Shown piece after piece: positions 31,675 through 34,086 of a stretch of 37,043 nt of DNA (positions are counted from its first letter, which is position 1; every line of letters starts with the position of its first letter). The notes under the pieces are model-generated. The model was not told where the DNA came from. It ran no database searches and saw only the letters and a program-made list of their open reading frames with translations. Source of the stretch: Halanaerobium salsuginis (GTDB lineage Bacteria; Bacillota; Halanaerobiia; Halanaerobiales; Halanaerobiaceae); the NCBI RefSeq assembly GCF_900114545.1, contig NZ_FOTI01000029.1, positions 1 through 37,043 of the forward strand, in the 5' to 3' direction. The position numbers were made by a program, and so were the translations under genes.

Positions 31675-33343
31675 TCATAATTCAGCCAATTCATTCTCTA
31701 ATTTTTTAATCTCAACAGGGTCAACTGCTTTTTCTAATCTAGCAACTAATTCTGCTCTTTTCATCCGCTTTAATTCAGTTTCAAAATTCGGACCAGCTGA
31801 AGCTTCAATCTCTTGCTGATCTAAATACTGCTGATAATTACCTGAAAAAATTTCTAATCCTGTCTGATCTAACTGCCAGATTTTATTTACCTGATTTTTA
31901 GCAAAATAGCGGTCATGTGTTACAGTCAAAAAAGCTCCATCATACTCAGCTAAAGCTGTTTCAATACGCTGACGAGACTCAATATCAAGATGATTTAAGG
32001 GCTCATCAAGCAGTAGAAAATTAGCCTGACTGAGTAATAAGATTGTAAAAGCCACTCTAACCCGTTCGCCAATACTCAAAACAGAAATTTTTTTAAATAC
32101 ATCTTCACCCCAAAAAAAGCATTGCTCCCAAAAAGGTTCTAATTTTTTCTTCTGTTAAATTTGGTAGATGCCTTTTTACTTCTGTCAGAATTGAATTTCT
32201 TTGCTCAAGATTTGCTAACTTTTGAGAGAAGTAAGCAATTTCAAGTTGAGAGTTTTTAAAAATTTCACCTTTAGTTGGAGTAATTTCACCTTTAATTATT
32301 TTTAAAAGTAATGACTTACCAGCTCCATTTTTACCTAACAAAGCAATTTTGTCTGTAGCCTGAATTTGAAAATTTAATTTACTAAAAATTTGCTGTTCTG
32401 CAAAACTTTTAGCAATATTCTTACCCTGAATAATAATCTGATCTGGTAAGTTTACAGCAGAAAAATCTATTCCAATTTTTCTGGATTGGTCTGGTTTTTT
32501 CTGCTCTGTTAATTGTTCTAATTGGGTCTGGAGAGCTTTTTGTTTCTTAGCTAAATTTGCTGCTCTTTTCTTATCTCTTACCTTTAAGAGTCTAGCAAAA
32601 GAGTCAGTTTTTTTACGGCCTTTATCTGCTTGATTAACAAATTTATTTTGCTGCCTAATTGATTTTTTTAATTTCTGTTTTCTCTTTTGATATTTTTGAT
32701 ATTCTCTTTGTCGCTGTTTTCTAGCTTGTTCTTTTTGCTGCTGATAGCTACTGTAGTTACCGGCATAAACTTTCATTTTCTTATTTTTAAGCTCCCAGAT
32801 TTGATCAACTACCTGATCTAAAAAATAGCGATCATGTGAAACAAGTAGTAGTGATCCCTTAAATTGATGATTTAAATAATCTGCTAACCAATCTCTCCCT
32901 GCCAGGTCAAGATGATTGGTTGGTTCATCTAACAATAAAAGTTCCGGTTCACTAATTAATATTTTAATTAGCTGTAATTTAGTCTGTTCTCCTCCACTGC
33001 AATTTACTATTTGCTGATCAAGTAGTTTAGTTGCAAAACCAAATTTGTTCATTAATTCCATAATAGTTGCATAATCATAACTTTCTGCAGTTAAAAACTC
33101 CTCCACAGTCTTTTTAGACTCATAATGATAGAACTGGGGTAAATAACCAGCAGAACAATTTAATTCAAAATTGCCCTGATCAGGCTCTAGTCGACCGATT
33201 ATTGTTTTTAGCAAAGTCGATTTGCCGCATCCATTACTTCCCACTAGACCAATTCTTTGCTCAGGATAAACAGCAGCTGATAAATCTTGAAAAATTTGCT
33301 TTTTACCTAGCCATTTGTTTAATTTATTCAATTCTAATAACAT
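31675..33343 (-). pseudogene. ABC-F ATPase (ribosome-protection/resistance type), broken by a one-base frameshift
   Basis: Two tandem ABC domains without membrane segments. Domain 1 is intact: Walker A GSNGCGKST, signature NCSGGEQTKL, Walker B LLLLDEPTNHLD, SHDRYFLD. A long basic linker follows (QREYQKYQKRKQKLKKSIRQ). Domain 2: Walker A GKNGAGKSLLL, then the frame hits a TGA after MLFLG (32105-32107). Dropping one base from the seven-A run on the plus strand (32112-32118) restores FWGEDVFKKISVLSIGERVRV, DEPLNHLD and THDRYFAK, giving one 555-residue protein. Such proteins expel antibiotics from the ribosome; the subgroup (Lsa/Vga/CplR-like) is a guess. Its long structured leader supports a resistance role. 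The break may be real or a homopolymer sequencing error. AGAGGAGAG precedes the ATG. Confidence 0.85.
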
Positions 33344-33347
33344 AAAA

Positions 33348-33527
33348 ATCTCTCCTCTTTAAAGCCATATTCTTCCAACAACCAGCTGGTTAGAATACCT
33401 TTAAAAAGCAGAGATTTAATAACAAATCCACAGCTATTTGTAAATATATGGTAATAAATATTTAGAATACTCTAACCAAGTCTGGCAAACTTTTAAATTA
33501 CTATCTGGTTAAAGTATTAATAATCAT
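33348..33527 (-). promoter_or_regulatory. ABC-F leader with sequestered Shine-Dalgarno and alternative pairings
   Basis: The ribosome-site region (33348-33364, minus-strand CTTTAAAGAGGAGAGAT) can pair with 33399-33415 over 17 positions with one mismatch and one G-U, hiding the AGGAG. Three upstream segments compete: A TACTTTAACCA (33516-33506), B TGGTTAGAGTA (33478-33468) and C TATTCTAACCA (33397-33387, in the loop of the sequestering hairpin). B can pair over 11 bases with either A or C. A perfect palindrome AACCAGCTGGTT (33380-33391) overlaps C. This is the layout of a translation-attenuation leader. Confidence 0.65.
33501..33527 (-). CDS. Possible leader peptide MIINTLTR of the ABC-F gene
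   Basis: ATG at 33527, eight residues, TAG at 33503-33501. Its last codons overlap pairing segment A, so a ribosome stalled here would free segment B. The nearest purine-rich site (AAAGGGTGA) is about 18 bases from the ATG, too far to be convincing. Confidence 0.35.
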   Translation of the reverse strand: MIINTLTR

Positions 33528-33568
33528 CGTTTTAAGTTAAATTTCACCCTTTCTTTAAAATCAACTTA

Positions 33569-33597
33569 ATTTTAACACAATTAGCTATATAAAACAA
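33569..33597 (-). promoter_or_regulatory. Candidate promoter of the ABC-F gene
   Basis: On the minus strand TTGTTT (33597-33592) and TAAAAT (33574-33569) are 17 bases apart. It would start an mRNA about 220 bases before the ABC-F start codon, just ahead of the possible leader peptide. It overlaps the GNAT gene end only marginally. Confidence 0.5.
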
Positions 33598-33600
33598 CTT

Positions 33601-34086
33601 TCAAATAACTAGATACTGCCAGTAAGCTACATCAAGCCATTGCTCAAATTTATAGCCAACTTCTTTGAAAACCGCAATCTTTTGAAAACCTAATTTTTTA
33701 TGAAGAGCAGCACTTGCCTGATTTGGTAAAGTTACTACACTAATAACAGAATGAATTTTCTGTTCTCTTAATAAATTTATAACATGTTTAGCTAGAATGG
33801 TTCCTACTCCCTGACCTTTCTGGTCTGGTTGAAGATAAATAGTTAATTCGGCGTTATAACGATAAGCAGTTCTGCTTTTCCAGCTTGAAGCATAGGCATA
33901 TCCAATAACTTGACCTTCTTGTTCGTAAACAAACCAGGGATATCTAGCAGTTATTTTTTCGATTCTAGACAGCATTTCCGCTGCATCTATACTCTGTTCT
34001 TCAAAAGTAATAGTAGTATTTTTAATATAATAATTATAAATATCAGCAATTATTGCTGCATCTGCTTTGCGCACTGCTCTAATCAT
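33601..34086 (-). CDS. GNAT N-acetyltransferase, phosphinothricin/amino-acid (PAT/MnaT-like) type
   Basis: 161 residues of the PAT/YncA family: MIRAVRKADAAIIADIYNYY, the FEEQSIDAAEM segment, PWFVYEQEGQVIGYAYAS, the acetyl-CoA loop DQKGQGVGTILAKHV, and NQASAALHKKLGFQKIAVFK near the end. Members acetylate the amino group of amino-acid analogues such as phosphinothricin or methionine sulfoximine. It starts 17 bases after the AraC gene in the LysE-AraC-GNAT run, a set suited to exporting and detoxifying unwanted amino acids or analogues. The exact substrate is unknown. Confidence 0.88.
   Translation of the reverse strand: MIRAVRKADAAIIADIYNYYIKNTTITFEEQSIDAAEMLSRIEKITARYPWFVYEQEGQVIGYAYASSWKSRTAYRYNAELTIYLQPDQKGQGVGTILAKHVINLLREQKIHSVISVVTLPNQASAALHKKLGFQKIAVFKEVGYKFEQWLDVAYWQYLVI

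Follow-up and report, generated by a model that had tools for sequence, protein, structure and literature searches.

Exclusive pairing of strands 1:2 and 3:4 or of strands 2:3, coupled with a leader peptide, is the basis of erm-type attenuation. Among ABC-F genes, cplR of Clostridioides difficile has a leader with the uORF MRI whose transcript stops at the ABC-F start codon, and known leaders with such a layout respond to the antibiotics lincomycin and retapamulin (PMC10201436). In Bacillus subtilis, the vmlR leader, with the uORF MIN, shows the same order of elements with experimental support (PMC9226507). For ermC, the 1:2 / 3:4 versus 2:3 pairing has been described together with a leader peptide (PMC10219788). 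The leader described here, from Halanaerobium salsuginis, has the CplR layout with VmlR-like logic, a kind of switch that is already known in Bacillus and Clostridioides. Like cplR, it holds a uORF in a 5' hairpin, an antiterminator and one 3' hairpin that would act as both terminator and SD sequesterer, with a U tract at the ABC-F start codon (PMC10201436). The anti-antiterminator, antiterminator and terminator logic, with stalling on a short uORF, would be that of vmlR (PMC9226507), and the exclusive pairing and the leader peptide resemble those of ermC (PMC10219788). However, the present uORFs have 8 or 9 codons instead of the 3 of cplR, and their conserved TLT codons serve as a switch strand; no relation to the cplR leader was seen at the DNA level. 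In vmlR, the terminator (SL-3) and the SD-sequestering hairpin (SL-4) are separate, whereas one hairpin here seems to be both (PMC9226507). The vmlR leader also has a NusG-dependent pause hairpin (PMC9226507), whereas the NusG motif TTNTTT was not conserved in the present leaders when inspected by eye. In contrast to ermC, the last hairpin is followed by a U tract, which suggests transcription termination, and the controlled gene encodes an ABC-F protein, not a methyltransferase. We consider, with a probability of about 0.83, that this leader is an attenuator by which ribosomes control an ABC-F resistance gene and that a drug-stalled ribosome switches it on.

The leader of approximately 220 nt lies on the minus strand (33344-33562) of a 37,043-nt stretch of DNA that was analyzed as a whole (the window), between a GNAT-type acetyltransferase gene (33601-34086) and the start of the ABC-F gene at 33343. 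The upstream gene, also on the minus strand, scored 198.3 bits against arsinothricin N-acetyltransferase ArsN1 family B, which it resembles without reaching the cut-off of 210. The following features were located.

33569-33597, minus strand: candidate promoter read by eye, TTGTTT (33592-33597), 17-nt spacer, TG-T-TAAAAT (-10 at 33569-33574)
33544-33552, minus strand: ribosome site of the leader frame, AAAGGGTGA, at a distance of 16 nt from its ATG
33501-33527, minus strand: leader frame (uORF) MIINTLTR and stop codon, ATGATTATTAATACTTTAACCAGATAG, start and frame kept in all six leaders
33505-33517, minus strand: strand A, 5' strand of the putative anti-antiterminator within the uORF
33466-33480, minus strand: strand B, partner of A (predicted repressed state) or of C (predicted induced state)
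33386-33399, minus strand: strand C
33411-33429, minus strand: small hairpin tying up the anti-SD arm within the B:C fold
33346-33417, minus strand: SD-sequestering hairpin and probable terminator, anti-SD arm at 33408-33417
33350-33358, minus strand: SD AGAGGAGAG, buried in the preceding hairpin
33344-33348, minus strand: U tract immediately 5' of the ABC-F ATG
31675-33343, minus strand: ABC-F ribosomal-protection gene, with a +1 frameshift at 32105-32119

The SD hairpin consists of 8 and 10 lower pairs with one mismatch, followed by 7 and 5 further pairs. The candidate promoter was not called by a consensus scan; G009 and G003 carry like elements at the equivalent position (TTGTTT/TTGTCT, 17 nt, TATTAT). 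Between B and the anti-SD arm, the segment TTACCATATATTTACA (33435-33454, minus strand; TTCCATA.TTTAACA in the relatives) was conserved in all six leaders. No pairing partner for it held across the six, and the segment may serve in pausing or in protein binding. Upstream of the leader frame at L026, an inverted repeat (CTGTTCGAAAA...TTTTCGAACAG) was seen in G026 only.

Homologs were sought by protein and leader-DNA searches, first in the family and then in the class (59 genomes). ABC-F proteins 44 to 55% identical to that of the window were found in six other genomes, and the same leader was present in 6 of the 59 class genomes, including that of the window, each time immediately 5' of an ABC-F gene. 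A pattern search with the A and B cores in the same 59 genomes returned these six leaders and four extra matches; the one inspected, in G037, was rejected because it falls within a coding frame, and the remaining three (G021 and G057 among the genomes) were taken as chance matches. Two leader-DNA matches were likewise set aside as short AT-rich stretches, one inside an open frame (G008) and one intergenic with no adjacent ABC-F gene (G001). No leader of like sequence was found beyond the window in 398 genomes sampled across the phylum, nor was there any match to plasmids, and a scan of the genome contigs with the protein returned only distant ABC-F relatives. Rfam families, including riboswitches and T-boxes, gave no match at the gathering score in the window, and matches with E up to 10 were at chance level only. 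In a more distant relative (G038/L028; ABC-F protein 46% identical), the leader frame reads MRLWIELSAQI and is unrelated to the six. In its leader (1230-1510 of L028; z = -4.35), a separate 5' hairpin is present, and the SD lies in a 3' hairpin after which U's come at the start codon. Because this layout of hairpins, SD and U's is kept with a different leader frame, the arrangement seems to outlive its sequence.

The fold of the leader was far more stable than expected from its composition. The folding energy of the 261-nt leader was -66.3 kcal/mol, whereas shuffled sequences averaged -45.8 (z = -4.97) and none of 200 shuffles was as low. When partner strands were shuffled by dinucleotides, shuffles as good as the native pairing in the window numbered 0 of 1,000 for A:B, 4 of 1,000 for B:C and 0 of 1,000 for anti-SD:SD; in the relatives, the same test gave at most 42 of 1,000 for any of these pairings. 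The pairings are also conserved in evolution. The cores of A and B are invariant, and A:B is paired in all six leaders. The sequences of C and of both arms of the SD hairpin differ among the leaders with pairing retained. One B:C position appears as C-G, G-C and A-U, and one terminator position as U-A, U-G, A-U and C-G, although these changes were read from per-sequence folds and are partly circular. RNAalifold recovered both A:B and anti-SD:SD from a sequence alignment, and in four pairs both bases had changed. In an alignment-free strand swap among the six species, native B with native C gave the best total, ahead of 719 swapped assignments, and the native 5' and 3' arms of the SD hairpin were likewise the best of 720; relatedness can also favor native pairs, and this evidence is strong without being a formal probability. 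A chance fold in AT-rich intergenic DNA would agree with the AT richness of the region and with the loose patterns that match elsewhere without such a gene, but it is scarcely credible in view of the z score and is refuted by the homologs, which show compensatory changes with a conserved frame and position. These results bear out several claims of a preliminary description made from the sequence of the window, namely that a pairing hides the ribosome site of the ABC-F gene, that three elements A, B and C allow two exclusive folds and that the short frame MIINTLTR overlaps A. Covariation, proposed there as a check, is present as well: the five homologous leaders keep the frame and the pairings, and the variable helices co-vary.

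The exclusive use of B was examined in folding models. In RNA before C emerges, A:B forms with a probability of 0.84 to 0.95. In window RNA extending up to the SD, A:B formed at 0.95 with A free, and B:C formed at 0.90 with A masked. A ribosome footprint placed at codon 1, 2, 3, 4, 5 or 7 of the leader frame changed A:B to B:C in five of the six leaders; in G032 the change was weaker at codon 7, and G033 was the exception, in which B:C was not favored. The B:C fold encloses the small hairpin on the anti-SD arm in four of the six leaders (the window, G003, G033 and G032). In full-length RNA at equilibrium, the terminator hairpin was favored in all leaders even with A masked, and G003 alone retained some B:C (0.24). 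Since the complete SD hairpin beats B:C by energy, the models imply that the choice of fold must be made during transcription, in the manner of an attenuator.

The end of the SD hairpin is consistent with this timing. In all six leaders it ends with GATTTTT(A/T)TG, in which the stem is followed at once by U5 to U7, with the start codon at the tract; this U tract had been overlooked in the preliminary description. From this sequence, the hairpin is a probable intrinsic terminator, although it was not among the calls of a consensus terminator scan, and because it looks like one, the switch is probably mainly transcriptional, of the CplR type. Pure translational attenuation of the erm type, in which every transcript is full length and the only effect of stalling is to expose the SD through B:C, would agree with the SD lying within a hairpin in every leader. 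This explanation is very unlikely, because each of the six hairpins is followed by a U tract and the full-length SD hairpin beats B:C with A masked, so that a late decision would not free the SD. Thus, of the antibiotic-inducible logic of the ABC-F and erm type suggested earlier, the ABC-F attenuator layout is supported by the homologs, whereas an erm-like release of the SD at equilibrium is not predicted, since, by energy, B:C is unable to open the finished hairpin.

For the proposed attenuator, the precedents of CplR and VmlR lead us to infer that the leader is translated, that ribosomes stall on it and that termination and induction take place. Without drug, the leader frame would be read through or unoccupied, A would pair with B, and C would be left for the downstream hairpin, which would stop transcription at the start codon and mask the SD in any read-through RNA. 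With drug, a ribosome stalled on the leader frame would cover A and free B. B would then pair with C as it emerges, forming an antiterminator that removes the upper half of the terminator, so that RNA polymerase would pass and the SD would remain open.

The weakest step of this model is translation of the leader frame, because its ribosome site is distant from the ATG. GGTGA is present in all six leaders, 11 to 16 nt from the leader ATG, where the anti-SD was taken as standard, as no 16S 3' end was found in the window's assembly. Upstream starts (GTG and ATA) were inspected by eye and rejected, because in two or more of the six leaders they run into a stop codon or are not in frame. Pairing between the leader SD and the conserved mid segment was also considered, but it does not hold in the window and was discarded. 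The leader peptides are MIINTLTR in the window, MIINTLTIQ, MRINTLTIQ (twice), MRISTLTIQ and MFKYTLTIK, and five of the six follow the consensus M[I/R]I[N/S]TLT(IQ), with MFKYTLTIK standing apart. Four of the six begin with MRI or MII, and these first codons recall the published uORFs MR[I/M] of CplR and MIN of VmlR, as a resemblance only. The arginine codon is CGT in two leaders and AGG in a third, a mixture that may hint at selection on the peptide. Codons 4 to 8 double as strand A, and their conservation can therefore be explained by pairing alone. This point, together with the modeled ribosome that switches the fold wherever it is parked on the frame, start codon included, would suit a leader that senses a slowdown of translation or initiation in general, or some other physiological or small-molecule signal, instead of PLS-type antibiotics. 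Such a sensor is nevertheless unlikely, given that the product is an ABC-F ribosomal-protection protein and that known leaders of like layout respond to lincomycin and retapamulin. It is decidedly unlikely that M(R/I)INTLT(IQ), with its ribosome site far from the ATG, senses slowed initiation or a stall specific to the peptide, unlike the tripeptide sensors of cplR and vmlR; if true, this lineage would couple the same RNA logic to a trigger of its own.

For the ABC-F protein, the intact relatives scored 495 to 504 bits against NF000355, the NCBIfam model of ribosomal-protection ABC-F proteins, and passed its cut-off of 380 bits. None of the named subfamily models (among them Vga, Msr, Lsa, Sal, CplR and OptrA) was passed by the intact relatives, and their scores against the CplR model NF043038 were 335 to 367, below the cut-off of 780 bits. 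In the window, a single additional base in CTTTTTTTGGGGTGA (32105-32119, minus strand) causes a +1 frameshift at a point where the relatives are in frame, and the two pieces scored 369 and 109 bits against NF000355 because of the frameshift. The preliminary description had not remarked on this break. The G032 homolog (L029) is also frameshifted, elsewhere, between its two ATPase domains. These frameshifts may reflect assembly error, decay, homopolymer variation or something else.

Halanaerobium, ABC-F and antibiotic resistance were combined in none of the papers listed by a literature search in which papers containing all three terms rank first. The present leaders thus extend uORF-controlled, probably termination-based ABC-F regulation to a lineage without a report in the literature searched. 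They also provide a set for comparison in which the same RNA strand serves as peptide code and as switch, which helps in asking what the peptide adds beyond the parking of a ribosome.
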